This document shows positions 19,984-63,814 of a DNA stretch of 64,000 bases, one piece after another. The notes under the pieces were generated by a model. That model saw only the letters and a list, made by a program, of their open reading frames with translations, had not been told where the DNA came from and ran no database searches. Source of the DNA: Catellatospora sp. KI3 (GTDB taxonomy: Bacteria; Actinomycetota; Actinomycetes; Mycobacteriales; Micromonosporaceae); contig NZ_JASAMB010000022.1 of NCBI RefSeq assembly GCF_029948125.1, forward strand, positions 79,709 to 143,708. Direction: 5' to 3'. The translations under genes were made by a program, and so were the position numbers. The number at the start of each line of letters is the position of its first letter. The first letter of the stretch is position 1.

Positions 19984-20106
19984 GACCGAAATGACCCCGG
20001 AGATCACGACCTCAGGTCACAACACTGCACAGCTAGACAGCCGAGACCCCGCTTTTCGTCCGCATTCGCCGATCGCCGACGAGAAGGGCGGCTCAGATCG
20101 GCATGA

Positions 20107-24306: not shown

Positions 24307-24363
24307 TGATCACGGTGCCGGGGTGGGGACACGCCGCCGAGCATGTCCATAAGTTCATGATCA
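24307..24363. repeat. 57-bp dispersed repeat bounded by TGATCA, copy C (inverted)
   Basis: On the minus strand it begins TGATCATGAACTTATGG like copies A and B and ends with TGATCA at exactly the same distance. The middle is more diverged. It lies 25 bp beyond the stop codon of the DNA glycosylase gene, so all three copies sit at 3' ends of genes. Confidence 0.7.
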
Positions 24364-24388
24364 ACCGGGGCGGGCGGGGGCCCCGGGG

Positions 24389-25288: not shown

Positions 25289-25334
25289 GCCCTCGAATCT
25301 GCCACCCGCGCCCGCCTTACCGCAGGTCGGGGTC

Positions 25335-25396
25335 TGCAGTTTCGGGGAAAGTGCAGGAATCCGGCGCATGATTCGTGCACTTTCCCCGAAACTGCA
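25335..25396. repeat. Inverted repeat, TTTCGGGGAAA family, copy 2
   Basis: 26-bp arms with one mismatch (25335-25360, core TGCAGTTTCGGGGAAAGTGC, and 25371-25396) around a 10-nt loop, placed directly after the nurA stop codon, where it could terminate the operon. Confidence 0.88.
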
Positions 25397-25397
25397 C

Positions 25398-26372
25398 CTA
25401 CCCCGCCGCCGCAGGCCCGGCGGGCCCGGCGGCGGTGCGCTGGGCGGCGATGACCAGGGAGCGGTGCAGGAGCTTGCCGTCGCCGAGCAGGTGGCGCAGC
25501 TTGCGCTCCAGGCCCGCGATCGGTACGAGGTTCTGCGGCGCCCGCGGGTCCTTGTACGGCAGCGACGCGAACCGCGGAATCGTCGCCGTCGACAGCTCCG
25601 CCAGCTCGACAGCCTCGTAGTCGGGCACCTCCGCCGAGCACTCGACCCGCACGATGCCCGCCCACGGCGACCCGCCCGCGTGCGGCAGGCGCAGGTACCA
25701 GGTGAGGCGCTCGTACACGCCGGTGATCCGGAAGACGGGCGTACGCTGCCCGGCGCGCAGCGCCGCGACCACGCTGATCAGCCGGTCGGGCAGGTACTGC
25801 TTCTGCTGCGTCTTGATGTAGCCCAGCGTGCGCGGCAGCGCGTCGCGGCTGCGCAGCGGCCCGTCCACGATCAGCAGGTCGCCGTCGGTGCGCAGCTGCC
25901 GCGACACCGCGATCTCCAGCTCGGTCAGCGCCCCCTGCACCCGGTTGGACAGGTCGGCCTCGTCGGCGCCGACGACGGTCTGGGCCGTGTAGCGGGCGGC
26001 CTGGCCGCAGTCGACATCGGCGGCGGCCTCGGCGGCGGTGAACAGGCTCCGCTCGACCTTCACGCCGGTGACGCTGGCCCCGGCGCGCTCGCAGCGCACC
26101 ACCCCCGCCGCGTACGAGCAGGCCAGGCCGGGGCGGGTGACCCCGTCGGCGTCCTCGATCCAGAGGCGGGCGTCGGTGCGGCGCACGCCGTCGACGAGCA
26201 GGACGCTCTCGGGGGCGGCCAGGCCGGGCGGCGTGTCCAGGGGACGCCACGCGCCCACCGGGAGCTCGATCTCGGCGTCGAGCTTGGCGGAGCTGGTCTC
26301 GGCCGGGCCGCGTTCGGCAGCGTCGAGGCTGGTGCCGAACCCGGGATCCCAGGCGTCCACATGGAACTTCAT
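25398..26372 (-). CDS. nurA: NurA-like 5'-3' nuclease
   Basis: 324 residues. Two RNase-H-like acidic strands typical of NurA are visible: VLLVDGVRRTDARLWI near residue 58 and LLIVDGPLRSRD near residue 168. A C-terminal region rich in conserved hydrophobics follows (GIVRVECSAEVPDYEAVELAELSTATIPRFASLPYKDPRAPQNLVPI), where NurA has its final catalytic segment. NurA works with the HerA motor to resect DNA ends together with Mre11-Rad50. It is last in the operon, 24 bp after sbcC. Assignment rests on motifs and on the herA-sbcD-sbcC context. Confidence 0.8.
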   Translation of the reverse strand: MKFHVDAWDPGFGTSLDAAERGPAETSSAKLDAEIELPVGAWRPLDTPPGLAAPESVLLVDGVRRTDARLWIEDADGVTRPGLACSYAAGVVRCERAGASVTGVKVERSLFTAAEAAADVDCGQAARYTAQTVVGADEADLSNRVQGALTELEIAVSRQLRTDGDLLIVDGPLRSRDALPRTLGYIKTQQKQYLPDRLISVVAALRAGQRTPVFRITGVYERLTWYLRLPHAGGSPWAGIVRVECSAEVPDYEAVELAELSTATIPRFASLPYKDPRAPQNLVPIAGLERKLRHLLGDGKLLHRSLVIAAQRTAAGPAGPAAAG

Positions 26373-31922: not shown

Positions 31923-31995
31923 CGCCATGATCGCTACTCGCGGTCAGAAAGTGCGCTTTCAACACGGGTTCTGACCTGCAGTAGCGATCATGGCG
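31923..31995. repeat. Nested palindromic element
   Basis: Outer perfect 15-bp arms CGCCATGATCGCTAC (31923-31937) and complement (31981-31995) enclose inner 8-bp arms GGTCAGAA (31942-31949) and TTCTGACC (31969-31976). It lies in the 362-bp gap 31798-32159 upstream of herA. With the next element it occupies much of that gap, in which no gene is supported. Confidence 0.75.
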
Positions 31996-32079
31996 AGCTC
32001 TGTCCGCCGTCTCCGCTCCCGCCCGCCACCCGCTCCGGCCCGCCACCCGTGCCCGGCGCCGCAGCGTCGACCACGCTGC

Positions 32080-32133
32080 GTCTCGGGGAGAGTGCACGAA
32101 TCGCGACGTCCATTCCTGCACTTTCCCCGAAAC
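32080..32133. repeat. Inverted repeat, TTTCGGGGAAA family, copy 3 (diverged)
   Basis: 22-bp arms (32080-32101 and 32112-32133) with three mismatches and a 10-nt loop. The right arm CACTTTCCCCGAAAC matches copy 2 exactly. It is placed 26 bp beyond the stop codon of the minus-strand membrane protein. Confidence 0.8.
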
Positions 32134-33833: not shown

Positions 33834-35006
33834 TCAGCTGCCCTGGTCGAACTTCTCCCAGGTGCCGATCGCGGTGCGGTTGGCGATGAGCGCGGCCGCT
33901 CCCGCGTTCTCCGCCACCACGTACTTGCCGTTGGCCTGGGCGCGCAGGCTGATCGTGCCGTCGCTGTTGACGATGCGGGCGAACGTCTCCCACGGGCCGA
34001 CGGCGGTCCGGTTGGCGATCAGGGGGTTGGCCCCGGCGTTGTCGGCGCAGACGTACTTGCCGTTGGCCCGGGACTTCAGCGCGATGTTGCCGCCGCCCAG
34101 GTCGACGATGTCGTACCGCTCGGACAGGGTGGCCGCGGTGGTGGCGCCGGCTATCAGGTTGCCGGTGCCGCCGCCGGGGGCGGTCACGAACTTGCTGTTG
34201 GCGCGCGCCTTGAGGGTCGCGCCGGTGACCGGCGGCTGCGAGGTGGGCGTGCAGTCGGCCGCGACCGAGCCGGCCGCGATCTGCAGGCCGCCGAGCAGCA
34301 TCTTCGTGAAGTTGGTGTCGGTGTAGCTGGCCTCGGTGTGGCCGAGGCCGGTGTACCAGGAGCGCCCGCCGCCGTAGTTCTGGCACCAGGTGATCGGGTG
34401 GTCGCCCATGGTGCCGCCGGTGTACGACGCCTCGTTCAGGTTCATCAGCACCCGCACGTTGGGGCGGGGGTTGGTGCGGTAGTTGTACCACTCGTCCGAG
34501 CGGCTCCAGGTCGACGGCAGGTGCGCCGTCGAGGCGTTGACCGGGGTCTCCACCCGCACCTGGGCGGTCTGGATCGCCGGGTGGGAGGAGAAGTACGCGC
34601 CGACCAGGCCGCCGTACCAGGGCCAGTCGTACTCGGTGTCGGCGGCGGCGTGCACGCCGACGTAGCCGCCGCCGGCGGCGATGTAGTTCTGGAACGCGGT
34701 CTGCTGGGTGGCGTCGAGGACGTCGCCGGTGGTCATCAGCCACACCACCGCCTGGTACTGGGCCAGGTTGGCGGCGTTGAACTGGGTCGCGTCCTCGGTG
34801 GCGGTGACGGTGAAGCCGTTGGCCGAGCCGAGGGCCTGGATGGCGGCGATGCCGTTGGGGATGGACGAGTGCCGGAAACCGGCGGTCTTCGAGAACACCA
34901 GGACCTTCGTCAGCGGCGCCGCCGCTGCCGGGGTCGCCGGGCCGACCAGCACCGTCGCCACCAGGGCGACGAGGGCGGCGGCCAGGGACAGGAGGCGTTT
35001 GCGCAT
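33834..35006 (-). CDS. Secreted ThuA-domain protein with fascin-like C-terminal module (ThuA-1)
   Basis: 390 residues. A signal peptide (MRKRLLSLAAALVALVATVLVGPATPAAA) precedes a ThuA / class-I glutamine-amidotransferase-like domain (VLVFSKTAGFRHSSIPNG, GGGYVGVHAAADTEYDW, GDHPITWCQNYGGGRSWYTGLGHTEASY). ThuA proteins act in disaccharide metabolism; secreted forms are poorly known. The C-terminal 130 residues are a beta-trefoil, fascin-like module (GGGNIALKSRANGKYVCADN, SLRAQANGKYVVAEN, TWEKFDQGS), probably glycan-binding. Residues 30-140 are almost identical to ThuA-2 at 50175. It is divergent from the ebo-like operon. Confidence 0.88.
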   Translation of the reverse strand: MRKRLLSLAAALVALVATVLVGPATPAAAAPLTKVLVFSKTAGFRHSSIPNGIAAIQALGSANGFTVTATEDATQFNAANLAQYQAVVWLMTTGDVLDATQQTAFQNYIAAGGGYVGVHAAADTEYDWPWYGGLVGAYFSSHPAIQTAQVRVETPVNASTAHLPSTWSRSDEWYNYRTNPRPNVRVLMNLNEASYTGGTMGDHPITWCQNYGGGRSWYTGLGHTEASYTDTNFTKMLLGGLQIAAGSVAADCTPTSQPPVTGATLKARANSKFVTAPGGGTGNLIAGATTAATLSERYDIVDLGGGNIALKSRANGKYVCADNAGANPLIANRTAVGPWETFARIVNSDGTISLRAQANGKYVVAENAGAAALIANRTAIGTWEKFDQGS

Positions 35007-35449: not shown

Positions 35450-36589
35450 GTGCGTACCGGACTTTGGCTCATCGGAGCACGTGGTGCCGTGGCGGTGACC
35501 GGCATCGTGGGCGCGCTCGCGGTCCGGGCCGGCCTCGCGGAACCGACCGGCTGCGTGACCGAACTGCCCCCGCTGCGCGACGCTGCGCTGCCCACCCTCG
35601 CCGACCTCGTCATCGGCGGCCACGACGTCGTCGAGCTCGGCCTCGACAAGAAGGCGCAGGCGTTGGTCACCGCCGGCGTCCTGCCCGCCGCCATCGTGGC
35701 CGCCGTCGCCGACGACCTGGCCGCCGTGGAGGCCGAGCTGCGCTGCGCCCCGCACGGCGCCACCCAGCACGAGACCGCGGTCCGCATCGCCGCCGACCTG
35801 GACGAATTCCGGCGGCGCCACGCCCTGGCGCACGTGGTGGTGGTCAACGTCGCCTCCACCGAGGCGGCGGCGGTGCCGCACCCCGCGCACGCCGACCCCG
35901 AGGCGCTGGCTGCCGCGCTGCACACCGAGCAGGTGCTCCCGCCCAGCTCGCTCTACGCGTACGCGGCCTTCACCGCCGGGTGCTCGTACGTGGACTTCAC
36001 CCCGTCGACCGGGGCGCGGCTGCCCGCGCTGCACGAGCTGGCGCTGCGGGCCGGGGTCGCCTACGCCGGGCACGACGGCAAGACCGGCGAGACGCTGCTC
36101 AAGTCGGTGCTGGCGCCCATGTTCGCCATGCGCAACCTGCATGTGCGCTCCTGGTCGGGGACCAACCTGCTCGGCGGCGGCGACGGGGCCAACCTGGCCC
36201 GGCCCGACGCCAACGCGGCCAAGGTCGCCAGCAAGCAGCGGGTGCTCAAGGAGACGCTGGGCTACGAGCCGGAGGGCCACACCCGCATCGACTACGTGCC
36301 CGACATCGGCGACCTGAAGACCGCCTGGGACCTGATCACGTTCAGCGGGTTCCTGGGCAGCCGGATGCGGCTGGAGTTCACCTGGCACGGCTGCGACTCG
36401 GCGCTGGCCGCGCCGCTGGTGCTGGACCTGGCCCGGCTGACCGCCGCCGCGCACGCGCACGGGGTGTCCGGTCCGCTGCCGCAGCTCGCGTTCTTCTTCA
36501 AGGACCCGCTCGGCGACGTCCCGCACGGGCTGGCCGACCAGTGGCGTGACCTGTGCGCATGGGTGGGGGGCTGGGATGCGGCTGCGTGA
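35450..36589 (+). CDS. Inositol-3-phosphate synthase-like enzyme of an ebo-type cluster
   Basis: 379 residues. An N-terminal NAD-binding region (LWLIGARGAVAVTGIVGAL) is followed by the myo-inositol-phosphate synthase core: YVDFTPSTGARLPAL, GHDGKTGETLLKSVLAPMF, RSWSGTNLLGGGDGANL, KVASKQRVLKETLGY and a C-terminal catalytic-lid part with FTWHGCDSALAAPLVLDLARL. The family cyclises glucose-6-phosphate to inositol phosphate. This divergent member may make a related cyclitol. In many ebo clusters a dehydroquinate-synthase-like sugar cyclase (EboD) is present instead, so this enzyme may take that step. GTG start after AGGAGG. It overlaps the next gene by 14 nt. Confidence 0.88.
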   Translation: MRTGLWLIGARGAVAVTGIVGALAVRAGLAEPTGCVTELPPLRDAALPTLADLVIGGHDVVELGLDKKAQALVTAGVLPAAIVAAVADDLAAVEAELRCAPHGATQHETAVRIAADLDEFRRRHALAHVVVVNVASTEAAAVPHPAHADPEALAAALHTEQVLPPSSLYAYAAFTAGCSYVDFTPSTGARLPALHELALRAGVAYAGHDGKTGETLLKSVLAPMFAMRNLHVRSWSGTNLLGGGDGANLARPDANAAKVASKQRVLKETLGYEPEGHTRIDYVPDIGDLKTAWDLITFSGFLGSRMRLEFTWHGCDSALAAPLVLDLARLTAAAHAHGVSGPLPQLAFFFKDPLGDVPHGLADQWRDLCAWVGGWDAAA

Positions 36590-37415
36590 CCTGGCCGAGC
36601 TGGTCCGCGCGCCCGCCGCGCTGTCGGTGCCCGGCGACGCCGTCGCCGGGGCCGCCGCCGCGGGCAGCCTCGACGGGCGCACCGCCGGGGTCGCCGCCGC
36701 CTCGGTCTGCCTGTACTGGGCCGGGATGGCCGCCAACGACTGGGCCGACCGGGACCTCGACGCGGTCGAGCGCCCCGAGCGGCCGATCCCGTCCGGCCGC
36801 GTCGCGCCGAACACCGCGCTGGCGATCGCGGGCGGCCTGACCGCCGCCGGGCTGGCGCTGGCCGCCGCGTCGGGCGGGCGCCGCACGCTGGGCACGGCCA
36901 CCGCGCTGGCGGCGGCGGTCTGGGCGTACGACGTGCAGGCCAAGAACACCGCCGCCGGCCCCGCCGCGATGGCGGTGTGCCGGGGTCTGGACGTGCTGCT
37001 GGGCGCCAGCACCGGCCGGATGCGCCGCGCGGTGCGCCCGGCGTTGACCGTCGCCGCCCACACGTACGCGGTGACCGCGCTGTCGCGGCGCGAGGTCACC
37101 GGAGCCGACCGGTCGCTGCCCGCGCTGACGCTGGCCGGGACCGCCGCCGTCGCGTACGCGGCGTCCGGTCGGCGCGGCTGGGCCCCGGTCGGCCTGGCCG
37201 CCTGGTACGCGCTCAGGTTCGGGCGGGCGCAGCGCGACGTGCTGCGCGATCCTGCCGCCGGACGCGTGCGCGCCGCGGTCGGCGCGGGGATAACCTCGCT
37301 GCCCGCACTGCAGGGCGCGCTGATCGCCGCGTCGGGGCGGCCGCTGGCCGGGGCACTGGTCGCGGCCGGTGCCCCGGCCGGGGCGAAGCTGGCCAGGGCG
37401 GTGTCCCCGACATGA
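36576..37415 (+). CDS. eboC: UbiA-family prenyltransferase, EboC-like
   Basis: 279 residues, mostly hydrophobic, with about seven or eight membrane helices. The Asp-rich prenyl-diphosphate motif NDWADRDLDAVERPERPIPSGR lies at about residue 54. The second Asp motif expected after the middle helices is weak (AYDVQAKNT). UbiA enzymes join a polyprenyl chain to an acceptor in the membrane. Its neighbours supply a possible cyclitol acceptor and a prenyl donor. The ATG start sits after GGGGGG inside the end of the preceding gene, and the stop overlaps the next start (ATGA). Confidence 0.85.
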   Translation: MRLRDLAELVRAPAALSVPGDAVAGAAAAGSLDGRTAGVAAASVCLYWAGMAANDWADRDLDAVERPERPIPSGRVAPNTALAIAGGLTAAGLALAAASGGRRTLGTATALAAAVWAYDVQAKNTAAGPAAMAVCRGLDVLLGASTGRMRRAVRPALTVAAHTYAVTALSRREVTGADRSLPALTLAGTAAVAYAASGRRGWAPVGLAAWYALRFGRAQRDVLRDPAAGRVRAAVGAGITSLPALQGALIAASGRPLAGALVAAGAPAGAKLARAVSPT

Positions 37416-38716
37416 GCATCCGCTGGGGGTACGGCACCAACGGCTTCGCCAACCACCGCCTCGACGACGCGCTGGCGATCATCGCCGAGCTCGGCTACCA
37501 GGGCGTGGCGCTGACCCTGGACCACGGCCACCTCGACCCGTACGCCCCCGACCTGCGCGCCCAGGTCGACCGGACCGCGCACCGGCTCGCCGAGCTGGGC
37601 CTGACCGTGGTGATCGAGACCGGCGCCCGCTACCTGCTCGACCCCCGGCGCAAGCACAGCCCGACGTTCCTGCACGACGACCCGGCCCCGCGGCTCGACT
37701 TCCTGAAACGGGCCGCCGACATCGCCGCCGACCTCGGCGCCCAGGCGATGTCGTGCTGGTCCGGCGTACGCCCCGCGCACGTGCCCGAGGCCGCGGCCTG
37801 GGACCGGCTGGCCGACGGCGTGGCCCAGGTGCTGGAGCACGCGCGGCAGCGGCAGGTCGTGGTCGGCTTCGAGCCGGAGCCCGGCATGCTCGTCGACACC
37901 CTGGCCACCTGGCGCGAGCTGCGCGACCGGGTCGGCGACGGGCTCGGGCTCACCCTCGACATCGGCCACTGCCGGGCCAACGAGCCCGCCGACGTGCCCG
38001 AGTGCGTCCGGCAGGCCGGGCCGCACCTGGTCAACGTGCAGATCGACGACATGGTCCGGGGCGTGCACGAGCACCTGGAGTTCGGCGAAGGTGAGATCGA
38101 CTTCCCGCCGGTGCTGCGGGCGCTGGCCGACACCGGCTACGACGGCCTGGTCGCGGTCGAGCTGGCCCGGCACTCGCACGCCGCGCCCGAGGTGGCCGCC
38201 CGGTCGCTCACCTTCCTGCGCGCGGCGCAGTGGCTCGGCGACGCCCTCGCGCGGGTGCGCCGCGACCCGGCGGCGCTGGCCGTGCTGCTGCCCGCCGCCC
38301 GGCGCCACGTCGGCGCCGACGGTGCCGAGGGCGCCCGGATCCGGCTGCTGCAGGCCACCCTGCTCTCGCCAGAGCAGGCCACCGACCTGTACCGCTACGG
38401 CGACAACGACGAGAAGCGGGCCGTGCTGCGCGCCTGGCCCTCGGCCGAGCTGCTGCGCGACGCGCTGCGCAGCAACGACACCCGGCTGGTCGCCGCCGCC
38501 CTCGGCCAGGGCGCGGAGCTGCTCAGCGACGCCGAGTGGCGCCAGGCCGTGCTCAAGAGCGTGTTCATGGGCCTGCCGCTGGCGCAGGTGCACGACCTCG
38601 ACCGCCGCGCCGACGCCGAACTCGGCCGGATGCTCGACGGCCTGCGGCGCGAGCGTGAAGCCGCCGGCCGGACCATGCCCGCCGACGCCGTACGCCTGCT
38701 GGAAAGGCTGCTGTGA
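37412..38716 (+). CDS. eboA: Sugar-phosphate isomerase-like TIM barrel fused to an EboA domain
   Basis: 434 residues. The first 280 are a xylose-isomerase-like TIM barrel (GYGTNGFANHRLDDALAIIAELGYQGVALTLDHGH, VVGFEPEPGM, LTLDIGHCRANEP, VNVQIDDMVRGVHEHLEFGEGEIDF) with the usual metal-binding Glu, Asp and His residues. The last 150 residues are alpha-helical (LPAARRHVGADGAEGARIRLLQATLLSPEQATDLYRYGDNDEKRAVLRAWP) and match the EboA domain. EboA is a separate protein in cyanobacterial and pseudomonad clusters. The barrel probably isomerises or epimerises the sugar or cyclitol intermediate. Coupled to both neighbours. Confidence 0.82.
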   Translation: MSIRWGYGTNGFANHRLDDALAIIAELGYQGVALTLDHGHLDPYAPDLRAQVDRTAHRLAELGLTVVIETGARYLLDPRRKHSPTFLHDDPAPRLDFLKRAADIAADLGAQAMSCWSGVRPAHVPEAAAWDRLADGVAQVLEHARQRQVVVGFEPEPGMLVDTLATWRELRDRVGDGLGLTLDIGHCRANEPADVPECVRQAGPHLVNVQIDDMVRGVHEHLEFGEGEIDFPPVLRALADTGYDGLVAVELARHSHAAPEVAARSLTFLRAAQWLGDALARVRRDPAALAVLLPAARRHVGADGAEGARIRLLQATLLSPEQATDLYRYGDNDEKRAVLRAWPSAELLRDALRSNDTRLVAAALGQGAELLSDAEWRQAVLKSVFMGLPLAQVHDLDRRADAELGRMLDGLRREREAAGRTMPADAVRLLERLL

Positions 38717-39564
38717 TGCGCATCTTCGACCCGCACATCCACATGACCTCACGCACCACCGACGACTACGCGGCGATGGCCGCCGCGGGCGTGCTCGCCC
38801 TGGTCGAGCCCGCGTTCTGGCTCGGCCAGCCGCGTACCAACCCGGGCTCGTTCACCGACTACTTCGACGCGCTGCTGGGCTGGGAGCCGTTCCGGGCCAG
38901 CCAGTTCGGCATCCGGCACCACTGCACCATCGCGCTGAACCCGAAGGAGGCCAACGACCCGCGCTGCCGCGAGGTGCTGCCGCTGCTGCCGCGCTACCTG
39001 GCCAAGGACCGGGTCGTCGCGGTCGGCGAGATCGGGTACGACTCGATGACCCCCGACGAGGACGAGGTCTTCGCGGCGCAGCTCGAAATGGCCGTCGACG
39101 CCGACCTGCCGGCCCTCGTGCACACCCCGCACCGGGACAAGCTCGTCGGCACCCGGCGCAGCATCGACGTGGTCAAGGAATCCGGCATCGAACCCGGCCG
39201 GGTCGTGCTGGACCACCTCAACGAGCTGACCGTCGCCGAGGTCGCCGCCTCCGGCTGCTGGATGGGCTTCTCGATCTACCCCGACACCAAGATGTCGCCG
39301 GACCGGATGGTCGCCATCCTGCGCGAGCACGGGCTGGAGCGGATGCTGGTCAACTCCGCGGCCGACTGGGGCAAGTCGGATCCGCTGCTCACCTTGCGCA
39401 CCGGGGAGGCGATGCTGGCGGCCGGGTTCACCTCCGACGACGTGGACCGGGTGCTGTGGCGCAACCCGGTCGAGTTCTACGGGCAGTCCAAGCGGCTGGA
39501 CCTCGACGGGATCAGCGACGGGGCGACGTACGCGGGCAACTCGATCCTGCGCGGGGGGTCGTGA
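38716..39564 (+). CDS. eboB: TatD-family metal-dependent hydrolase of the ebo-like cluster
   Basis: 282 residues. The amidohydrolase-type metal motif is at the N-terminus (IFDPHIHMTSRTTDDY), an additional ligand region is VAVGEIGYDSMTPDEDE, and later HTPHRDK, LDHLNELTV and VNSAADWGKSDP complete the barrel. TatD proteins hydrolyse nucleic acids or small phosphoesters; in ebo clusters the substrate is not known. The ATG at 38716 overlaps the previous stop (TGATG). A GTG at 38713 is less likely. The stop overlaps the next start in the same way. Confidence 0.85.
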   Translation: MRIFDPHIHMTSRTTDDYAAMAAAGVLALVEPAFWLGQPRTNPGSFTDYFDALLGWEPFRASQFGIRHHCTIALNPKEANDPRCREVLPLLPRYLAKDRVVAVGEIGYDSMTPDEDEVFAAQLEMAVDADLPALVHTPHRDKLVGTRRSIDVVKESGIEPGRVVLDHLNELTVAEVAASGCWMGFSIYPDTKMSPDRMVAILREHGLERMLVNSAADWGKSDPLLTLRTGEAMLAAGFTSDDVDRVLWRNPVEFYGQSKRLDLDGISDGATYAGNSILRGGS

Positions 39565-40682
39565 TGCGGCTGCGCAGAGCCGACGGCTCGACCGTGCACC
39601 TGGCGTACTGCACGAACGTGCACCCGGCCGACGACCTGCCCGGGGTGCTGGCGCAGCTGGACCGCTTCGCGGTCCCGGTACGCGAACACCTCGGCGCAGA
39701 CCTGCTGGGGCTGGGCCTGTGGCTGGCCGCGCCGGTCGCGTCCGCGCTGGCCGCCGACCCGGCGCTGCGCCGCAAGGTGCGCGCCGAACTGTCCGCCCGG
39801 GGGCTGGAGACGGTGACCCTCAACGGCTTCCCCTACCAGGCCTTCCACGCACCCGTCGTCAAGCACGACGTCTACCGTCCGGACTGGACCGATCCGCGCC
39901 GCCTGCGCTACACCCAGGACCTCGCGATCGTGCTGGCCGACCTGCTGCCCGACGACGCGGCGCGCGGCTCGATCTCGACCCTGCCGCTGGCCTGGCGCGA
40001 ACCGTGGGACCGGCCCCGCTGGCAGGCCGCGCGGGCCCAGCTGCGCGCGCTGGGGCAGGCCCTGGCCGACAGCGACCGGGAGATCCGGGTGGCGCTGGAG
40101 CCGGAACCGGGCTGCGTGGTGGAGAACATCGACCAGGCCGTGGCGGCGCTGTCGGGGGTCGGCAGCGACCGCCTGGGCATCTGCGTCGACCTGGCCCACC
40201 TCGCCTGCGCCTGGGAGGACCCGCGCGACGCGGTGGCCAAGCTCGAAGCCGCCGGGGTGCCGGTGGTGAAGGTGCAGGTGTCGGCGGCCCTGGAGGTCGA
40301 GGACCCGCAGAATGCGGCCGAGGTGCTGGCGACGTACGCCGAACCCCGGTTCCTGCACCAGACGCGCAGCGCGGGCGGGGCCGTCTTCGACGACCTGCCG
40401 CAGGCGCTGGCCTCCTCGGCGAACGGGCCGTGGCGGGTGCACTTCCACGCCCCGCTGCACGCCGCCCCGCCCGCCCCGCTGGCCGCGAGCACGCCCGTGC
40501 TCGTCGAGGGCCTGGCCGCGCTGCTGGCGGGCAGCTCGTGCGACCACTTCGAGGTGGAGACGTACACCTGGGAGGTGCTGCCGAAGGCGGCCCGCCCGAC
40601 CGACGACGCCGGGCTGGCCGCGGGCATCGCCGCCGAGCTCGCGTACGCCCGTGCCCAGATGTCGACGTGTGGGGTGAGCTGA
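39564..40682 (+). CDS. eboE: Metabolite traffic protein EboE-like
   Basis: 372 residues of the TIM-barrel sugar-isomerase superfamily. It opens with STVHLAYCTNVHPADDLPGVLAQLDRFA, the recognised start of EboE proteins. NGFPYQAFHAPVVKHDVYRPDW, RVALEPEPGCVVENIDQAV, LGICVDLAHLACAWEDP, VVKVQVSAALEV and LLAGSSCDHFEVETYTWEVLP follow. In cyanobacteria the ebo genes are needed to move a precursor across the inner membrane. The biochemical role of EboE is not established. Four of the five shared cluster proteins are adjacent and coupled here. Confidence 0.88.
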   Translation: MRLRRADGSTVHLAYCTNVHPADDLPGVLAQLDRFAVPVREHLGADLLGLGLWLAAPVASALAADPALRRKVRAELSARGLETVTLNGFPYQAFHAPVVKHDVYRPDWTDPRRLRYTQDLAIVLADLLPDDAARGSISTLPLAWREPWDRPRWQAARAQLRALGQALADSDREIRVALEPEPGCVVENIDQAVAALSGVGSDRLGICVDLAHLACAWEDPRDAVAKLEAAGVPVVKVQVSAALEVEDPQNAAEVLATYAEPRFLHQTRSAGGAVFDDLPQALASSANGPWRVHFHAPLHAAPPAPLAASTPVLVEGLAALLAGSSCDHFEVETYTWEVLPKAARPTDDAGLAAGIAAELAYARAQMSTCGVS

Positions 40683-40683
40683 G

Positions 40684-42057
40684 ATGGACCGTCCCGTGGT
40701 GGTGCTCGACGTGGTCGGGCTGAGCCCGCGCCTGCTGGCGCACATGCCCCGGCTGCGCGCGGCGTTCGCGACGGGCGCCACCGCCCGCCTCGACCCGGTG
40801 CTGCCCGCCGTCACGTGCAGCGTGCAGGCCAGCTTCCTCACCGGGCTGACCCCGACCGACCACGGCATCGTCGGCAACGGCTGGTACTTCCGCGACCTCG
40901 GCGACGTGCTGCTGTGGCGCCAGCACCACGCGCTGGTCCAGGGCGAGCGGGTGTGGGACGCGATCCGGCGCGCGCGCCCCGGCTACACCGTGGCCAACAT
41001 CTGCTGGTGGTACGCCATGGGCGCCGACGTCGACTGGACGATCACGCCGCGGCCGATCTACCGCGCCGACGGCCGCAAGGACCCCGACTGCTACACGGTC
41101 CCGGCGGAGCTGCACGACGAGCTGCCGGTGTTCCCGCTGTTCACGTACTGGGGGCCGGGGGCGGGGATCGCGTCGTCGGCGTGGATCGCGGCCGCGGCCG
41201 TACACGTGATGCAGACCCGCGACCCGGACCTGACCCTGGTCTACCTGCCGCACCTCGACTACGACCTGCAGCGCTTCGGCCCGTCCGGCCCGGAGGCGGC
41301 CAAGGCCGCCGCCGAGCTGGACGAGGTGCTCGGCCCGCTGCTGGACGCGGCCGCCGCCCGGGGCGCCGCCATCGTGGCCCTGTCCGAGTACGCCATCACC
41401 GACGTCTCGAAGCCGGTGCACGTCAACCGCGCCCTGCGCGAGGCCGGGCTGCTGCGCGTGCACACCCAGGACGGCATGGAGTACCTCGACCCCTGGACCT
41501 CGCGCGCCTTCGCCGTCGCCGACCACCAGCTCGCCCACGTGTACGTCCGCGACCCCGCCGACACCGCCGAGGTCGCCAAGCTCTGCGCCGGGCTGCCCGG
41601 CGTCGCGCAGGTGCTCGACGAGGCGGGCAAGGCCGAGCACGGCCTGGCCCACGAGCGCAGCGGCGAACTCGTCCTGCTCGCCGAGCCGGACGCCTGGTTC
41701 ACGTACTACTACTGGCTCGACGACGCCCGCGCGCCCGACTTCGCCACCCACGTCGAGATCCACCGCAAACCGGGCTACGACCCCGCCGAGCTGTTCTTCG
41801 ACCCGGCCGGGCCGGGCGCGGCCAAAGCCCGCGCCGCCAAGGCACTGGTACGCAAGAAGCTGGGCCTGCGCTACCGCTTGAACGTGGTCGGCCTGGACGC
41901 CGGAGCCGACGCGGTCCGGGGCTCGCACGGGCTGCTGCCGCCCTCCGACCAGGATGCCCCGGTGCTGCTGTGCACCGAGGCCGCCGGGCTCGGGCAGCGC
42001 ATCGCCGCGACCGAGGTCAAGGCGCTGCTGCTGCGGCTGGCGGGGGTGGCAGAGTAA
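40684..42057 (+). CDS. Nucleotide pyrophosphatase/phosphodiesterase-like protein (ebo-type)
   Basis: 457 residues of the alkaline-phosphatase superfamily. The nucleophile is probably the Thr of PAVTCSVQASFLTGL near residue 42. Metal residues are in VVVLDVVGLSP at the start, in YLPHLDYDLQRFG, in VALSEYAITDV and in GSHGLLPP near the end. Related nucleotide pyrophosphatases cleave phosphodiesters or diphosphates such as nucleotide sugars. No signal peptide is visible, so it is cytosolic. It may hydrolyse a phospho-intermediate of the pathway. One base separates it from eboE, and its stop overlaps the next start (TAATG). Confidence 0.87.
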   Translation: MDRPVVVLDVVGLSPRLLAHMPRLRAAFATGATARLDPVLPAVTCSVQASFLTGLTPTDHGIVGNGWYFRDLGDVLLWRQHHALVQGERVWDAIRRARPGYTVANICWWYAMGADVDWTITPRPIYRADGRKDPDCYTVPAELHDELPVFPLFTYWGPGAGIASSAWIAAAAVHVMQTRDPDLTLVYLPHLDYDLQRFGPSGPEAAKAAAELDEVLGPLLDAAAARGAAIVALSEYAITDVSKPVHVNRALREAGLLRVHTQDGMEYLDPWTSRAFAVADHQLAHVYVRDPADTAEVAKLCAGLPGVAQVLDEAGKAEHGLAHERSGELVLLAEPDAWFTYYYWLDDARAPDFATHVEIHRKPGYDPAELFFDPAGPGAAKARAAKALVRKKLGLRYRLNVVGLDAGADAVRGSHGLLPPSDQDAPVLLCTEAAGLGQRIAATEVKALLLRLAGVAE

Positions 42058-43226
42058 TGACGCTGGCCCCGGCCGTGCCGACGCTGCCCGCGCGGGTGGA
42101 CGCGGTGCTGGCCCGGTTCCTCACCGCCCGCGCGGTGTTCGGCCGCGACGAGGACCTGCGCGACCTGCTCGCCGTCATCCGCCGCTTCGTCCTGCACGGC
42201 GGCAAGCGGCTGCGCCCGGCCCTGTGCTACTGGGCCTGGCACGGCACCGGCGGCACGGACGGGCAGGACGAGGAGGCCGTCGTCGCCGGGGCGGCGCTGG
42301 AGCTGTTCCACTGCTTCGCCCTGATCCACGACGACATCATCGACGCCAGCGGGTTCCGGCGCGGCCGCCCGTCGCTGCACGAGGAGTTCGGGCAGCGGCA
42401 CGCCGGTCAGGGCTGGGGCGGCGACGCGGCGGCGTTCGGCCGCGGCGCCGCGATGCTCTGCGGCGACCTGTGCGCGATGTGGGCCGAGGAGCTGCTCGCG
42501 GCCTGCGGCGCCGCGCCCGACCGCCTGCGCGCCGCGCAGTCCCTGTTCACCCTGATGCGCGCCGAAGCCATGGCCGGCGAGTACCTGGACCTCCTGGGCA
42601 CCGCCACCGGCCACCGCCCGTCCCCGCCTCCGCTTCAAGTTGCCGGGCAATCGGGGGAGACAGTGCCCCCTATCGCCCCGATCGCCCGGCAACTTGAGCG
42701 AGGTCGGGGCGAGGGGCCGGATTCGCGGCGGGTGCTGCGGGTGGTGCGGTTGAAGACGGCGCGGTACTCGATCGTGCGGCCGCTGCAGATCGGGGTGGTG
42801 CTGGCGGGGGCGCAGGAGCGGGCCCTGGCCGCGTGCGCGGCGTTCGGGGAGCCGCTGGGGCGGGCGTTCCAGCTGCGCGACGACGTGCTGGGGGTGTTCG
42901 GCGATCCGGTCGAGACCGGCAAGTCGGTGCTGGACGACCTGCGGCAGGCCAAGCCGACGATGCTGCTGGCCGAGACCTGGGCGCGGGCGGCGGGGTCGGA
43001 CCGGGAGGTGCTGCGTACGCATGTGGGGGAGCCGGAGCTGGACGAGGCGGGGGCGGCCCGGGTGCGGGAGGTGATGACCGGATGCGGGGCGCTGGCGGCG
43101 GTGGAGCGGCGGATCGGCTCGGCGCACCGGCGGGCCCGGTACGCGCTGGCGGCGTGGGAGTTGACGGAGCAGGCGCGGCGGGAGCTGTCGGGGCTGGCCG
43201 ACGCGGCCGTGCGGCGATCTCGTTGA
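42057..43226 (+). CDS. Polyprenyl diphosphate synthase with inserted palindrome-encoded segment
   Basis: 389 residues. The family core is complete: GGKRLRPALCYWAW, first Asp-rich motif LIHDDIIDASGFRRGRPSLH (near residue 91), MRAEAMAGEYLDLLG, RVVRLKTARYSIVRPLQIG, and second motif FQLRDDVLGVFGD (near residue 274). It makes a C15-C20 or longer prenyl diphosphate, presumably the donor for EboC. Residues about 185-220 (HRPSPPP to GEGPDS) interrupt the normal short link between the fourth and fifth helices. They are encoded largely by a 63-bp inverted repeat (42635-42697), yet the frame stays open. It is the last gene of the operon. Confidence 0.9.
   Translation: MTLAPAVPTLPARVDAVLARFLTARAVFGRDEDLRDLLAVIRRFVLHGGKRLRPALCYWAWHGTGGTDGQDEEAVVAGAALELFHCFALIHDDIIDASGFRRGRPSLHEEFGQRHAGQGWGGDAAAFGRGAAMLCGDLCAMWAEELLAACGAAPDRLRAAQSLFTLMRAEAMAGEYLDLLGTATGHRPSPPPLQVAGQSGETVPPIAPIARQLERGRGEGPDSRRVLRVVRLKTARYSIVRPLQIGVVLAGAQERALAACAAFGEPLGRAFQLRDDVLGVFGDPVETGKSVLDDLRQAKPTMLLAETWARAAGSDREVLRTHVGEPELDEAGAARVREVMTGCGALAAVERRIGSAHRRARYALAAWELTEQARRELSGLADAAVRRSR
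42635..42697. repeat. Palindromic element inserted inside the prenyl synthase gene (TTGCCGGGCAATCGGG family, copy 1)
   Basis: 22-bp arms (42635-42656, core AAGTTGCCGGGCAATCGGGG, and 42676-42697) with one mismatch and a 19-nt loop. It contributes 21 codons without stop or frameshift. A related element outside genes lies at 46506-46558. Confidence 0.85.
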
Positions 43227-43358: not shown

Positions 43359-46300
43359 ATGCGCCAACGCACCGTCCCGCGCCTGCTCGCGGCAGCCGTG
43401 CTGGCCGCGGGCCTGCTCACCGCGGCCCCGGCCGGCCCGGCCGCCGCCTCGCCCACCGACGCCGCCTTCAACTCCGGCACCGGCGCGCTGAACGTCGACT
43501 ACGCCGGCTACCTGTCCAAGCACGACCTCGTCTACAACAAGCCCAACACCAACCCGCTGCACGGCCTCACCGTCGGCAACGGCCGCACCGGTGCCATGGC
43601 CTGGTCGGCCAACGGCCTGACCATGCAGGTGTCCGGCGTCGACCTGTCCCAGCAGTCGGCTTTCGCGGCGGGCAACCTGAACTTCAACACCAGCCCGTCG
43701 CTCGACTCCGGCTACACCACCTACCAGCAGCGCCTGTCGCTCTATGACGGCACGCTGACCACGAAGTACGACGGCAACCGCACCGTCACCGTCATGGGGT
43801 CGCCCAACTCCGAGGTGATGGGCGTCCACGTCGACGATTCGCGCGGCGGCGTGGCCGGCGCGACTCTGGAGCTGAGCCTGTGGGACCCCAACGGGGTCTC
43901 CAACAGCGCCGACGTGCCGAACCTGACCACCTGGCGCACCGTGCAGACCGGCTCGGACGCCTCCGCCGCCTGGTTCAGCCGGGGCCAGGCCGACCCGAAC
44001 AACTTCGGCTACACCTTCGCCGCCACGGTCGAGGGGGCGGCGTACTCGGCGTCGGTGGTCAACGGCACCCGGGTCCGGTTGAGCATCACCCCGACCAGCA
44101 GCTACACCATCTGGTTCACGGCGGCCAGCCGGCTCAACTCGCCGAACCTGGACTCGGTCGCCCAGGCCAAGAACCAGCTCGCCTCGGTCAAGTCGACCGG
44201 CTACGCCACCACGCTGAACAACTACCGGAACTGGTGGCACAGCTTCTGGCAGAAGTCGTTCGTGCAGTACTCGAACTCCGCCGGCGACGCAGACTACCTG
44301 GAGAACGTGTACTACCTGGCCACCTACATGATCGCGGCGGGCGGGCACGGCAACTACCCGTACCACTTCATCAACGGCGTGTTCCGGGCCACCGGCGACC
44401 AGACCAAGTGGAGCAACGGCTACTGGTACTGGAACCAGCGCGACGTCTACAACTCGTTCTTCGCCAGCAACCACGCCGACCTGATGGCGGGCTTCAACAA
44501 GCTCTACAGCCGCAACTTCAACGCGCTGAAGGCGTACACGCAGACGCGCTACGGCACCGACTCGCTGTGGGTGCCGGAGACGATGGGCTGGGACGGCAAC
44601 GCCCGCGGCACCATCGGCAGCGACTTCGTCAACGACATCTACTCCACCGGCACCGAAGCCGCCTACAACATGTACCTGCAGTACAAGTACACGAACGACA
44701 CGACCTACCTGCGTGACGTCGCGTACCCGTACATGCGGGAGGCGCTGCGGTTCTACCAGAACCGGTTCCAGCTGATCAACGGCAGGTATCAGATGCCGAC
44801 CTCGAACGCGCACGAGACGTACTGGGACGTGCGCAACGCGATCACGGACCTGGCCGCGGTGCGGCTGCTGGCGCCGCTGACCATCCAGGTCAGCACGCAG
44901 CTCGGGCTCGACTCGGGGCTGCGCGCGGGCTGGCAGAACCTGGTCGACAACCTGTGGCCGTACCAGGTGTCCAACAACGCCTGGCTGCCGCACGACCCGC
45001 CGACGGCGCAGACGCGCAACGGCGAGAACGTGTCGGCCGAGCTGATCTGGCCCTATGACCGCACGGGCATCGGCGCCGCCGACTACGGCACGGCCGTGAA
45101 CACGTGGAACGTGCGGCCCAACCCGTACAGCAACGTGTGGGCCAACGACCACGCGCAGGCGGCCCGCCTGGGCCTGGGCGACCAGGCGTTCAGCGGCATG
45201 CGCCTGATGCTGCAGCGCTACCAGAACTACCCCAACGGCATGACCAACAACACCAACGGGGTCTTCGAATACCTCGGCATCCACCTGGTGGCGATGAACG
45301 AGTCGCTGCTGCAGAGCTACAACGGCCGGATCCGGGTGTTCCCGGCGGTGCCGACCGACTCCTCGATGGTCACCAGGTTCACGCTGCTGGCCCAGGACGG
45401 CTTCCTGGTCAGCTCGGAGCGCGAGGCCGGTGAGATCAAGTACGTCGGCCTGAAGAGCCAGTTCGGCAAGGACGCCCGCGTGGTCAACCCCTGGGGCACC
45501 CAGCAGGTCCGGGTGCGCCGCACCTCCGACAACGCGATCATCACCACCTCCACCGCGGCCGAAGTCACCTTCAGCACCGCCGCCAACACGGTCTACGTGC
45601 TGGAACGCACCGCCAAGCCGCTGACGAACTACAGCGCGGCCACGCTGACGGGCACCGCCAACAACGACGTGAAGTCGCTGCGCAACACCGCCTCGACGCT
45701 GGGCCTGCCCGGCGGTGCGGTCGGCGGCCTGGTCAACGACACCGAGCTGAGCTACGACGCGAACTGGTTCCAGACCACGAACCGGGGCTACGGCGACTAC
45801 AACGACGACACCCACCACACGACCACGGTCAACGCGGCGGCGTCGTACACGTTCACCGGCACCGGGGTCGAGTACCTGTCCGAGCGCTTCAGCGACATGG
45901 GCAACGTCGACGTGTACCTGGACAACGTCCTCCAGGCCAACGTCAACCTGAACGTCGGCGGCGCCCGGCAGGCGCAGCAGGTGGTCTGGTCCAAGACGGG
46001 CCTGGCGAGCGGCCAGCACACCATCCGCATCGTCAACAAGACCACCTCGGTGGCGATCGTCGACGCGCTGCGGATCACCACCGGCGGCACCCCGCCCGGC
46101 ACCACCTACGTCGGCCTGAAAGCCCAGGCCAACGCGCAGTGGGTGTCCGCGCCCAACGCCACCACCGCGCTCATCGCCAACAAGACCGCGGTCGGGACCA
46201 CCGAGCAGTTCGAGGTGGTCGACCGGGGCGGCGGCTCGGTGTGGCTGCGCTCGCGCGCCAACGGCCAGTACGTCTGCGCCGAGAACGCCGGAGCCAACCC

Positions 46301-46493
46301 GCTGGTCGCCAACCGCGCCTCGGCCGGGGCCTGGGAGACGTTCACCCTGGTCCGCAACTCCGACGGCACGGTCAGCTTCCTCGCCCAGGTCAACAACCGC
46401 TACGTGGTCGCCGAGAACGGCGGCGCCGCCGCCCTGATCGCCAACCGCACCGCCATCGGCCCCTGGGAGAAGTTCGACATGATCACCCAGTAG
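43359..46493 (+). CDS. Secreted GH95-like / DUF5703-type glycoside hydrolase, multimodular
   Basis: 1044 residues. A signal peptide (MRQRTVPRLLAAAVLAAGLLTAAPAGPAAA) is followed by an N-terminal beta-sandwich with GLTVGNGRTGAMAW, the GH95-like hallmark. The (alpha/alpha)6 barrel includes WHSFWQKSFVQYSN, ETMGWDGNARGT and NNAWLPHDPPTAQTRNGENVSAELIWPYDRTG. A galactose-binding-like sandwich is at about 765-905, and a fascin-like beta-trefoil at about 915-1044 (TYVGLKAQANAQWVSAP to PWEKFDMITQ). GH95 enzymes release alpha-L-fucose or L-galactose. The pairing with an L-fuconate-dehydratase-like gene downstream fits, but specificity is not proven. Start chosen after GGGAGG; an earlier GTG (43299) lies in the operator region. 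Confidence 0.82.
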   Translation: MRQRTVPRLLAAAVLAAGLLTAAPAGPAAASPTDAAFNSGTGALNVDYAGYLSKHDLVYNKPNTNPLHGLTVGNGRTGAMAWSANGLTMQVSGVDLSQQSAFAAGNLNFNTSPSLDSGYTTYQQRLSLYDGTLTTKYDGNRTVTVMGSPNSEVMGVHVDDSRGGVAGATLELSLWDPNGVSNSADVPNLTTWRTVQTGSDASAAWFSRGQADPNNFGYTFAATVEGAAYSASVVNGTRVRLSITPTSSYTIWFTAASRLNSPNLDSVAQAKNQLASVKSTGYATTLNNYRNWWHSFWQKSFVQYSNSAGDADYLENVYYLATYMIAAGGHGNYPYHFINGVFRATGDQTKWSNGYWYWNQRDVYNSFFASNHADLMAGFNKLYSRNFNALKAYTQTRYGTDSLWVPETMGWDGNARGTIGSDFVNDIYSTGTEAAYNMYLQYKYTNDTTYLRDVAYPYMREALRFYQNRFQLINGRYQMPTSNAHETYWDVRNAITDLAAVRLLAPLTIQVSTQLGLDSGLRAGWQNLVDNLWPYQVSNNAWLPHDPPTAQTRNGENVSAELIWPYDRTGIGAADYGTAVNTWNVRPNPYSNVWANDHAQAARLGLGDQAFSGMRLMLQRYQNYPNGMTNNTNGVFEYLGIHLVAMNESLLQSYNGRIRVFPAVPTDSSMVTRFTLLAQDGFLVSSEREAGEIKYVGLKSQFGKDARVVNPWGTQQVRVRRTSDNAIITTSTAAEVTFSTAANTVYVLERTAKPLTNYSAATLTGTANNDVKSLRNTASTLGLPGGAVGGLVNDTELSYDANWFQTTNRGYGDYNDDTHHTTTVNAAASYTFTGTGVEYLSERFSDMGNVDVYLDNVLQANVNLNVGGARQAQQVVWSKTGLASGQHTIRIVNKTTSVAIVDALRITTGGTPPGTTYVGLKAQANAQWVSAPNATTALIANKTAVGTTEQFEVVDRGGGSVWLRSRANGQYVCAENAGANPLVANRASAGAWETFTLVRNSDGTVSFLAQVNNRYVVAENGGAAALIANRTAIGPWEKFDMITQ

Positions 46494-46505: not shown

Positions 46506-46558
46506 TTGCCGGGCAATCGGGCGTATCAAGCCCTGTCATACGCCCGATTGCCCGGCAA
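46506..46558 (+). repeat. Palindromic element, TTGCCGGGCAATCGGG family, copy 2
   Basis: Perfect 21-bp arms (46506-46526, core TTGCCGGGCAATCGGGCG, and 46538-46558) with an 11-nt loop, starting 12 bp after the GH95-like stop codon, where it can serve as terminator. The gap 46494-46838 contains this, a second hairpin and no gene. Confidence 0.85.
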
Positions 46559-50174: not shown

Positions 50175-52286
50175 ATGAAGAGGCGAATCCTGTCCCTGCT
50201 CACCGGCGCCGCGCTGGTGGCGGGCCTGGCCGCGGTGGCTCCGGCCACCACGGCGTCGGCCGCGCCGCTGACGAAGGTGCTGGTGTTCTCGAAGACCGCC
50301 GGTTTCCGGCACTCGTCCATTCCCAACGGCATCGCCGCCATCCAGGCCCTCGGCTCGGCCAACGGCTTCACCGTCACCGCCACCGAGGACGCGACCCAGT
50401 TCAACGCCGCCAACCTGGCCCAGTACCAGGCGGTGGTGTGGCTGTCGACCACCGGCGACGTGCTGGACGCGACGCAGCAGACCGCGTTCCAGAACTACAT
50501 CGCCGCCGGCGGCGGCTACGTCGGCGTGCACGCCGCCGCCGACACCGAGTACGACTGGCCCTGGTACGGCGGCCTGGTCGGCGCCTGGTTCTCGTCGCAC
50601 CCGGCGACCCAGCAGGCCACGATCGCGGTCGAGGACCGGTCGAACATCTCGACCTCGCACCTGCCGAGCACGTGGACCCGCACCGACGAGTGGTACAACT
50701 ACCGCACCAACCCGCGCGCCAACGCGAAGGTGCTGGCCAGCCTGGTCGAGTCGTCGTACTCGGGCGGCACCATGGGCGACCACCCGATCACCTGGTGCCA
50801 GCACTACGGCGGCGGGCGCTCCTGGTACACCGGCCTCGGCCACACCGAGGAGACCTACGCCGACCCGCTGTTCCGGACCATGCTGCTGGGCGGCATCCAG
50901 ATCGCGGGCGGGTCCAAGCCTGCCGACTGCCGCCCGGAGATGGGCTACACAGCCCTGTTCGACGGTACGCAGAGCACCTTCAACCAGTGGCGGATGGCCG
51001 GTCCGGGCGGGTTCACCCTGGCCGACGGCACGCTGACCTCGTTCGGCGGCATGGGCCTGCTGTGGTACCCGGTCCGCACGTTCAGCGACTACTCGCTGAA
51101 GCTCGACTGGATGATGCCGGGCGACGACAACGGCGGCGTCTTCATCGGCTTCCCCGATCCGCAGGGCGACCCGTGGAATCCGGTCAACGCGGGCCACGAG
51201 ATCCAGATCGACGCCACCGACGCCGACCCCACCCGCACCACGGGCAGCGTATACAGCTTCAAGGCGCCCGACACCACGGCCCGCGCGGCGGCGCTGAACC
51301 CGCCGGGGCAGTGGAACACGTACGAGATCGGCCTGCACGGCCAGCGGGTCGAGATCTGGCTCAACGGCGTGAAGATCAACGACTACACCAGCACCCGCAG
51401 CATCGCCACCGGCTACATCGGCGTGCAGAACGACGGCGCCGGGGCGGACATCAACTACCGCAACATCCGGATCAAGGCGGGCAGCACCCCGCAGCCCACC
51501 GACCTGGCCCAGGGGCGGCCGACCACCACCTCCAGCGTGGAGAGCGGCAACGTGCTGGTCGGCGCGAACGCGGTCGACGGCAACTCGGCCACCCGCTGGG
51601 GCAGCCTGTACGCCGACCCGCAGTGGATCTCCGTCGACCTCGGCGCGAGCTACGCGCTGAACCGGGTGCGGCTGAACTGGGAGACGGCCTACGGCAAGGC
51701 GTACCAGATCCAGATCTCGCCCGACAACGCCGCCTGGACCACCGTCTACAGCACCACGACCAGTGACGGCGGCGTCGACGACGTCACGCTGACCGGCACC
51801 GGCCGCTACGTGCGCGTCTACGGCACCCAGCGCGCCACCCAGTGGGGCTACTCGCTGTTCGACCTCAACGTCTACGGCACCCCGGCCACCGGCCCGCAGC
51901 TGCTGTCCCGCAACCGGCCGGTCGCGGTCTCCAGCGTGGAACCCGGCAGCGCCCACAACGGCGCCAACGCCGTCGACGGCAGCACCACCACCCGCTGGGG
52001 CAGCGCCTACGCCGACCCGCAGTGGATCTCGGTCGATCTGGGCGCGAGCAGGAGCGTCCAGCGGGTGAAGCTCACCTGGGAAGCCGCCTACGGCAAGGCG
52101 TACCAGATCCAGACCTCGCCCGACAACGCCGCCTGGACCACGGTCTACAGCACCACGGCCGGCGACGGCGGCGTGGACGACGTCACCCTCACCGGGACCG
52201 GCCGCTACGTGCGCGTCTACGGCACCCAGCGCGGGCTCACCCAGTACGGCTACTCGCTCTGGGCGCTCGAGGTCTACGGCAGCTAG
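50175..52286 (+). CDS. Secreted ThuA - DUF1080 (3-keto-glycoside hydrolase-like) protein with two F5/8C modules (ThuA-2)
   Basis: 703 residues. The signal peptide (MKRRILSLLTGAALVAGLAAVAPATTASA) is followed by a ThuA domain (about 30-250) nearly identical over its first 110 residues to ThuA-1. A DUF1080 concanavalin-like domain (about 255-435: YTALFDGTQSTFNQWRMAGPGGF, YSLKLDWMMPGDDNGGVFIGFPD, WNTYEIGLHGQRVEIWLNG) follows. Two F5/8C domains (about 440-703) resemble those of PQQ-1. DUF1080 members include 3-keto-disaccharide hydrolases, so a joint pathway with the flanking sugar dehydrogenases is plausible. ATG after AGAGGAGAAG. Confidence 0.88.
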   Translation: MKRRILSLLTGAALVAGLAAVAPATTASAAPLTKVLVFSKTAGFRHSSIPNGIAAIQALGSANGFTVTATEDATQFNAANLAQYQAVVWLSTTGDVLDATQQTAFQNYIAAGGGYVGVHAAADTEYDWPWYGGLVGAWFSSHPATQQATIAVEDRSNISTSHLPSTWTRTDEWYNYRTNPRANAKVLASLVESSYSGGTMGDHPITWCQHYGGGRSWYTGLGHTEETYADPLFRTMLLGGIQIAGGSKPADCRPEMGYTALFDGTQSTFNQWRMAGPGGFTLADGTLTSFGGMGLLWYPVRTFSDYSLKLDWMMPGDDNGGVFIGFPDPQGDPWNPVNAGHEIQIDATDADPTRTTGSVYSFKAPDTTARAAALNPPGQWNTYEIGLHGQRVEIWLNGVKINDYTSTRSIATGYIGVQNDGAGADINYRNIRIKAGSTPQPTDLAQGRPTTTSSVESGNVLVGANAVDGNSATRWGSLYADPQWISVDLGASYALNRVRLNWETAYGKAYQIQISPDNAAWTTVYSTTTSDGGVDDVTLTGTGRYVRVYGTQRATQWGYSLFDLNVYGTPATGPQLLSRNRPVAVSSVEPGSAHNGANAVDGSTTTRWGSAYADPQWISVDLGASRSVQRVKLTWEAAYGKAYQIQTSPDNAAWTTVYSTTAGDGGVDDVTLTGTGRYVRVYGTQRGLTQYGYSLWALEVYGS

Positions 52287-63568: not shown

Positions 63569-63687
63569 CCCGCCGGCCCGACCTGGAACCGGAGATACCG
63601 AACACTCACCCCTGCCGCCCCCACTCGCCGCCCCGCCCGCGCGCCGCCCGCCGCCCCGCCCCGCCGCCCCGCCGCCCGTCTTGAATA

Positions 63688-63746
63688 GACGTTGGCCTAT
63701 TACGTGGAAGATGATCTCGAAAAATCCGCCGTGATAGGCCAGCGTC
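63688..63746. repeat. Imperfect inverted repeat downstream of the GntR gene
   Basis: 17-bp arms GACGTTGGCCTATTACG (63688-63704) and the near complement at 63730-63746 (two mismatches), loop 25 nt. It lies in the gene-free end of the window (63569-64000), after a C-rich tract at about 63600-63680. Confidence 0.6.
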
Positions 63747-63814
63747 AATGTATGGCGGGGTGTGGTGGGCCGGAATGCAGCCATCGGAGCTGGTGTGTGA
63801 GTTGTCCGGGTGGG

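Follow-up and report, generated by a model that had tools for sequence, protein, structure and literature searches.

The best-known cases of palindromic repeats entering genes without disrupting them come from Rickettsia and Wolbachia, and intragenic REPs and MITEs are known from some other species. Here, we describe the same outcome in a large-genome, GC-rich actinomycete, the free-living Catellatospora sp. KI3. The Rickettsia palindromic elements (RPEs) reportedly go back to Ogata et al. (2000). Excerpts of three papers present RPEs as keeping reading frames open and as lying in exposed regions (PMC2229807, PMC3767692, PMC10969869). REP/REPIN sequences and the CGTC-type REP dimers are treated in excerpts of another (PMC3733652); a further paper in this area is PMC3116915.

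The window, the whole stretch of 64,000 nucleotides that was analysed, contains a palindrome within a prenyl synthase gene. We regard this palindrome with good confidence as a copy of a clade-limited family, and the 90-bp in-frame insert as likely derived from a non-autonomous mobile repeat in an ancestor shared with the sister species C. tritici.

The prenyl synthase insert and its empty allele

The 63-bp inverted repeat occupies positions 42635..42697 of the window and has the layout TCAAG-TTGCCGGGCAATCGGG ... CCCGATCGCCCGGCAA-CTTGA, with an exact left arm of 16 bp (42640..42655, + strand), a variable loop of 21 nt (42656..42676) and a right arm with one mismatch (42677..42692, - strand). 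It lies in a + strand gene (42057..43226) whose translation is a polyprenyl (geranylgeranyl-type) diphosphate synthase of 389 aa (PF00348, E 3.4e-45). A match to the profile of the repeat family, referred to here as family T, covers 42633-42706. The RNA-fold z-score of the repeat was -7.0, and none of 200 shuffles folded equally well. The initial annotation had placed an inverted repeat at exactly these coordinates and a related element at 46506..46558, and both are real; the second copy has two exact arms and a z-score of -8.4. It lies 12 bp 3' of the stop codon of the preceding gene (43359..46493, + strand), which has GH95-like domains barely above the cut-offs, and is common to C. tritici and missing in the other sister species, TT07R-123. 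No Rfam 15 covariance model gave a hit above the gathering score in the 64-kb window.

The TT07R-123 orthologue, about 90% identical at the DNA level, is continuous over a 90-bp gap and constitutes a clean empty allele. The whole in-frame insert by this comparison spans 42623..42712 (+ strand, ends within a few bases), and a predicted peptide spanning it is, for example, LQVAGQSGETVPPIAPIAR. An earlier estimate of about 21 codons added in frame was correct as to the frame and too low as to the size, which is 90 bp or 30 codons. C. tritici carries an insert at the same place, and its 129-bp indel relative to TT07R-123 contains the same palindrome. The insert residues are lacking in six named Catellatospora species, and in eight of eight non-carrier congeners the match is interrupted at the insert point.

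Alignment with insert-free relatives, suggested as a check, covered 60 homologues drawn from the 120 matches listed of 4940 under the cut-off. Only the window protein and that of C. tritici had the insert, which bears out the suggestion that relatives lack it; TT07R-123 and the remaining 57 homologues in the alignment were without it. The flanking positions were separated by 43 residues in the window protein, 56 in C. tritici and 7-17 in the other 58. Because of this presence/absence distribution, a single insertion before this strain and C. tritici separated is likely, rather than repeated loss. In an AlphaFold2 model with a mean pLDDT of 90.6, the insert is predicted as a low-confidence loop (block means of 62-72) between two helices (154-184 and 223-249). 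An ordinary variable loop that is palindromic by chance would fit the varying loop length among homologues and the variation of another loop in the enzyme, but the same sequence stands at about 75 sites in the genome and folds with a z-score of -7; this explanation is refuted, with practically no probability left to it.

Two further observations concern the same gene and its surroundings. Near residue 66 of the prenyl synthase, an extra loop (GFDAAAVLAGLA...) is present in C. tritici and TT07R-123 and lacking in this strain, and no palindrome was seen in it by eye. The gene lies 3' of an ebo-like operon (window 36576-42057) that encodes an SCO3242-family (EboC-like) prenyltransferase, an EboA-domain protein, a TatD-like protein (below cut-off), EboE (profile score 400.7 bits, cut-off 250) and a phosphodiesterase.

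Family T in three Catellatospora genomes

A family-T unit consists of the 16-bp arm TTGCCGGGCAATCGGG, a loop mostly of 21 nt and the inverted arm. The genome-wide search proposed by the initial annotation found 42 exact arm matches in the 8.2-Mb genome and none for the reversed control, so the palindrome is not unique, and all 42 lay inside full copies. A covariance model built from 23 copies gave matches at all of the 150 candidates scored in this genome. Together with the stretches examined, these amount to at least 75 distinct copies, with one weak match left out of the count. Together with 64 copies from TT07R-123 and 33 from C. tritici, 172 distinct copies were examined; the latter two counts are a non-random sample, since most copies outside the 400-kb blocks round the orthologous gene were picked for two exact arms. 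Inside these blocks, TT07R-123 had 11 copies and C. tritici 13, while this genome had two in one block of 320 kb and five in another of 144 kb. Extrapolated totals are roughly 250 copies for TT07R-123 and 310 for C. tritici.

The pattern with two exact arms occurred in three of 354 Micromonosporaceae genomes (six times in this genome, 28 times in C. tritici and 63 times in TT07R-123), and exact copies were absent from the other 351, including eight congeners. All 295 arms carrying no more than one mismatch in the stretches examined in the three genomes lay inside full copies (overlaps count some twice), i.e., no solitary arm was found there. The unit measured 53 bp, with a loop spacing of 21 nt, in 155 of the 172 copies.

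Eleven of the 172 copies lie in coding sequence, at eight loci in unrelated genes, as called by a codon-score caller made for this analysis rather than a published one. These loci are the prenyl synthase (two genomes), what we take to be an ABC-ATPase-like gene (all three genomes), a metallophosphoesterase, a DUF58 protein, a GT87 protein, the C-terminal end of a DUF6999 protein, a ROK protein and a presumably saccharopine-dehydrogenase-like protein; the metallophosphoesterase, DUF58, GT87, DUF6999 and ROK names come from Pfam. The C. tritici ROK insert has no counterpart in the closest match of each of 10 other genomes, that of TT07R-123 being 89-96% identical. The DUF58 insert of this genome is missing in both sister species (92-94% identity), and the GT87 insert is missing in TT07R-123. 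At the ABC insert, seven of eight non-carriers are interrupted, and the eighth (G002) is 19 codons shorter across the site. The metallophosphoesterase copy, common to all three carriers, is unproven as an insertion because outgroup linkers vary in length. The saccharopine-like copy lies in a linker where C. tritici has other sequence of similar length. That these two of the eight coding loci are not proven to be insertions counts against the mobile-repeat reading.

Coding copies stand mostly where relatives have shorter linkers or none. The translated frames at the eight loci were VAGQSG...PIARQL (five), CxAIG (two) and LPG (one). In non-coding copies, these three frames were stop-free in 201, 222 and 253 of 288 readings, respectively (both strands), so a reading frame can take up the element with ease. 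A reading-frame preference was considered and rejected, as five of eight loci sharing a frame gives a hand-calculated binomial tail of about 0.09, which is not significant.

The 159 intergenic copies (two more lie at stretch ends) were distributed between convergent (60, 38%), tandem (86) and divergent (13, 8%) genes, compared with 17%, 54% and 29% of random intergenic points in a 1.26-Mb sample. In other words, 146 were between co-directional or convergent genes. Most copies stand directly behind stop codons, and 72 of the 86 in tandem gaps are closer to the stop than to the next start. Both the convergent excess and the proximity to stops would be expected if the repeats served as hairpins at 3' ends, either terminating transcription in both directions or stabilising mRNA, and were kept there by selection, with coding copies as by-products. 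The conservation of arms in place points the same way, and an excerpt on Streptomyces clavuligerus describes U-poor, structured 3' ends (PMC8269248). However, purging of promoter inserts predicts the same positions, which fit terminators and loss from promoters equally; the arms show no compensatory change above shuffles, the loops are less paired than shuffles, and the frequency of swaps between families at orthologous slots does not clearly exceed that expected from occupancy. We treat selected hairpins as a tentative alternative that is rather unlikely to account for the family.

Four further palindromic families (G, A, M and C) were found de novo in 1.26 Mb, making five with T. Their tandem copies were likewise nearer the stop (G 15/18, A 6/6, M 13/16, C 25/27). 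The five families occupy 36 of 100 non-divergent gaps of at least 100 bp in C. tritici and 42 of 101 in TT07R-123 (400-kb blocks).

Several other repeats were recorded in passing. A second palindromic family, with TGCAGTTTCGGGGAAAGTGC arms and the same loop of unlike halves as family T, has 62 copies in 1.26 Mb and lies in the window at 658-738, 25327-25405 and 32080-32133. It also stands in frame in a gene that is presumably MFS-transporter-like (G000:C1:51096-51168 in this genome, G005:C44:28925-28998 in C. tritici); in TT07R-123, the corresponding part of the orthologue has about 30 fewer codons. Copies of family M lie at window positions 15342-15410, 19802-19878 and 24327-24368, of family G at 19915-19989 and 31923-31998, and of family A at 63674-63760. 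Orthologous 3' gaps hold different families in the sister species C. tritici (G005) and TT07R-123 (G009) at G005:C44:334502 versus G009:C2:3119309 and at G009:C2:3423373 versus G005:C44:15817. The window further contains two tandem 71-bp units with a TGCGGTC motif (63813-63954, 82% alike) and a 697-bp inverted duplication (34251-34947 and 50234-50930, 87% alike).

Arm and loop variation and the question of movement

Loops were nearly all distinct (154 among the 155 copies of 53 bp), with arms alike. This diversity is not what simple copying from a master would give, and it counts against the mobile-repeat reading. Complementarity of the loop halves was 0.436 in the 155 copies versus 0.490 (sd 0.012) for shuffled halves, and 1000 of 1000 shuffles were at or above the observed value. 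Loop halves of family C were likewise less complementary (0.635 vs 0.693). Loop position 6 is C in one half and G in its partner in 86 of the 155 copies, where about 63 are expected (column counts, by hand), and the C half reads CGTATCTTG in 51 copies. The orientation of the unlike halves had no clear bias with respect to the gene (tandem 24 vs 15, convergent 15 vs 18). The low complementarity of the loop halves suggests that perfect palindromes may have been purged as unstable, leaving unlike halves. An unexplained preference for unlike halves appears in an excerpt on REP dimers (PMC3733652).

Among 10 orthologous family-T pairs, differing positions made up 18/290 in arms (6%), 34/181 in loops (19%) and 260/2275 in distant, partly coding flanks. 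The divergence of arms at 6% versus loops at 19% counts against the mobile-repeat reading, as it points to a function rather than to purely selfish DNA. Family C gave a similar picture (arms 0.078, loops 0.246, flanks 0.175), and the other three families pooled had no arm conservation (arms 0.151, flanks 0.153). We rejected a mere detection effect, since a simulation at 19% divergence left 15.5% among detected copies versus 6.2% observed; as 453 of 775 simulated copies were detected, part of the low divergence is ascertainment. No compensatory change in the arms exceeded shuffles among 23 copies, which had been chosen for one exact arm and from which three with indels (L009, L010 and L022) were dropped before the count. 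The lack of arm covariation and the loops less paired than shuffles indicate that base pairing as such is not kept, and arms that change so slowly may be recognised as sequence. Recognition by a dyad-binding protein, at sites that arose and were kept by selection rather than by insertion, would account for the conserved arms, the dyad symmetry and the 21-nt spacing in 155 of 172 copies. It sits poorly with inserts of 64-129 bp relative to empty alleles and with copies in unrelated coding sequences, and we judge it improbable.

The range of 64-129 bp was measured against empty alleles at the cleaner sites. Considering all five families, 47 alignable slots of TT07R-123 corresponded in C. tritici to 19 same-family, 12 other-family and 16 empty slots; in the opposite direction, 41 slots corresponded to 19, nine and 13, respectively. 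Family swaps were rejected as proof of functional exchange, being not clearly above occupancy (12/28 vs 36/100 and 9/22 vs 42/101). Target duplications were not regular: one, of 11 bp, was seen among 20 comparisons of occupied and empty sites (17 copies); the rest gave 0-2 bp, and several pairs were not clean. This irregularity weighs against the mobile-repeat reading. It also weighs against a MITE that an insertion sequence with the same ends would mobilise in trans, as does the fact that none of the 295 arm occurrences in the stretches examined lay outside a unit or flanked a longer element. Short, palindromic, high-copy elements that are present or absent between species are what such a MITE would produce, and we consider this origin unlikely, though worth keeping in mind.

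The initial annotation had suggested a REP-type tyrosine transposase as the associated enzyme, and this was not supported. No match to the RAYT profile (PF01797) was found in this genome, C. tritici or TT07R-123; matches were present in six of the eight congeners without exact copies, two of these with a stop and one partial. The opposed near-palindromic halves behind genes do recall REP dimers, as excerpted (PMC3733652), but a RAYT-driven REP/REPIN system is, as far as PF01797 detects RAYTs, largely refuted and very improbable given this distribution and a consensus with neither GTAG nor CGTC tag (26 and 23 copies, by eye). No mobilising enzyme was found, which counts against the mobile-repeat reading. 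As for the wider claim of a small mobile repeat family, the existence of a repeat family with sites that differ between species was upheld. That it is still able to move in this genome was not; copies with both arms exact are fewest here (six vs 28 and 63).

Returning to the non-autonomous mobile repeat that we prefer, whole units would have been inserted in trans by an enzyme other than a RAYT. Selection would then remove inserts from promoters and from most coding positions, and coding inserts may survive where a stop-free frame meets a tolerant loop. A surviving insert would leave a probably exposed peptide (LQVAGQSGETVPPIAPIARQLE here) with a roughly neutral effect.

Comparison with described palindromic repeats

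Family T is an unrelated, clade-limited family that works like RPEs. The resemblance to RPEs noted in the initial annotation extends to behaviour and not to sequence, size or host. As in the excerpted accounts of RPEs, there are several palindromic families per genome (five in 1.26 Mb here), open reading frames are entered without a frame break (eight loci, 172 copies here), different families sometimes stand at neighbouring sites of orthologues, and no transposase is known. Insertion into reading frames is backed by empty alleles in relatives at the prenyl synthase, ROK, DUF58 and ABC loci. RPE inserts are described from exposed positions; the prenyl synthase insert is predicted as a low-confidence loop between helices. 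According to the same excerpts, however, RPEs measure 100-150 bp, come from Rickettsia and Wolbachia and, in R. conorii, lie in coding sequence in nearly half of cases. Family T is shorter (a 63-bp repeat in an insert of about 90 bp), has a different sequence in a GC-rich actinomycete and is coding in 11 of 172 copies. Unlike RPEs, it combines like arms with a hypervariable loop and stands mostly at gene 3' ends.

REP dimers, as excerpted, are also inverted short near-palindromes behind genes with some copies inside genes, many REP families prefer unlike halves, and CGTC REPs likewise lack a dedicated transposase. Family T differs from REP/REPIN in having no GTAG/CGTC tag, no PF01797 gene in the carriers and no solitary half in the stretches examined. 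The MITEs RUP, Correia/NEMIS and ERIC share with it small inverted repeats, high copy number and occasional in-frame fusion to genes, as excerpted (PMC2229807), whereas in family T target duplications are not regular, no insertion sequence with the same ends turned up in the stretches examined, and the unit is nearly all palindrome. Such elements in Catellatospora or Micromonosporaceae were not named in the titles and abstract openings of a partial set of papers, including Micromonospora papers with the word 'palindromic', which is weak evidence of absence.

A more far-reaching proposal, which we put forward speculatively and think doubtful, is that family T represents a new class of small repeats, in which the arms are constrained in sequence and the loop has to avoid pairing with itself, and which a recombinase inserts whole behind genes. 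Together with its four sister families, it would fill more than a third of 3' gaps of at least 100 bp, and unrelated enzymes would have received the same peptide again and again, an origin of coding palindromes separate from that in the Rickettsiales. Sister species with empty alleles at about 90% identity make both the mover of the elements and the effect of the extra peptide on the enzyme testable. The pattern of conserved arms and a self-avoiding loop offers a rule to be compared with the preference of REP dimers for unlike halves.
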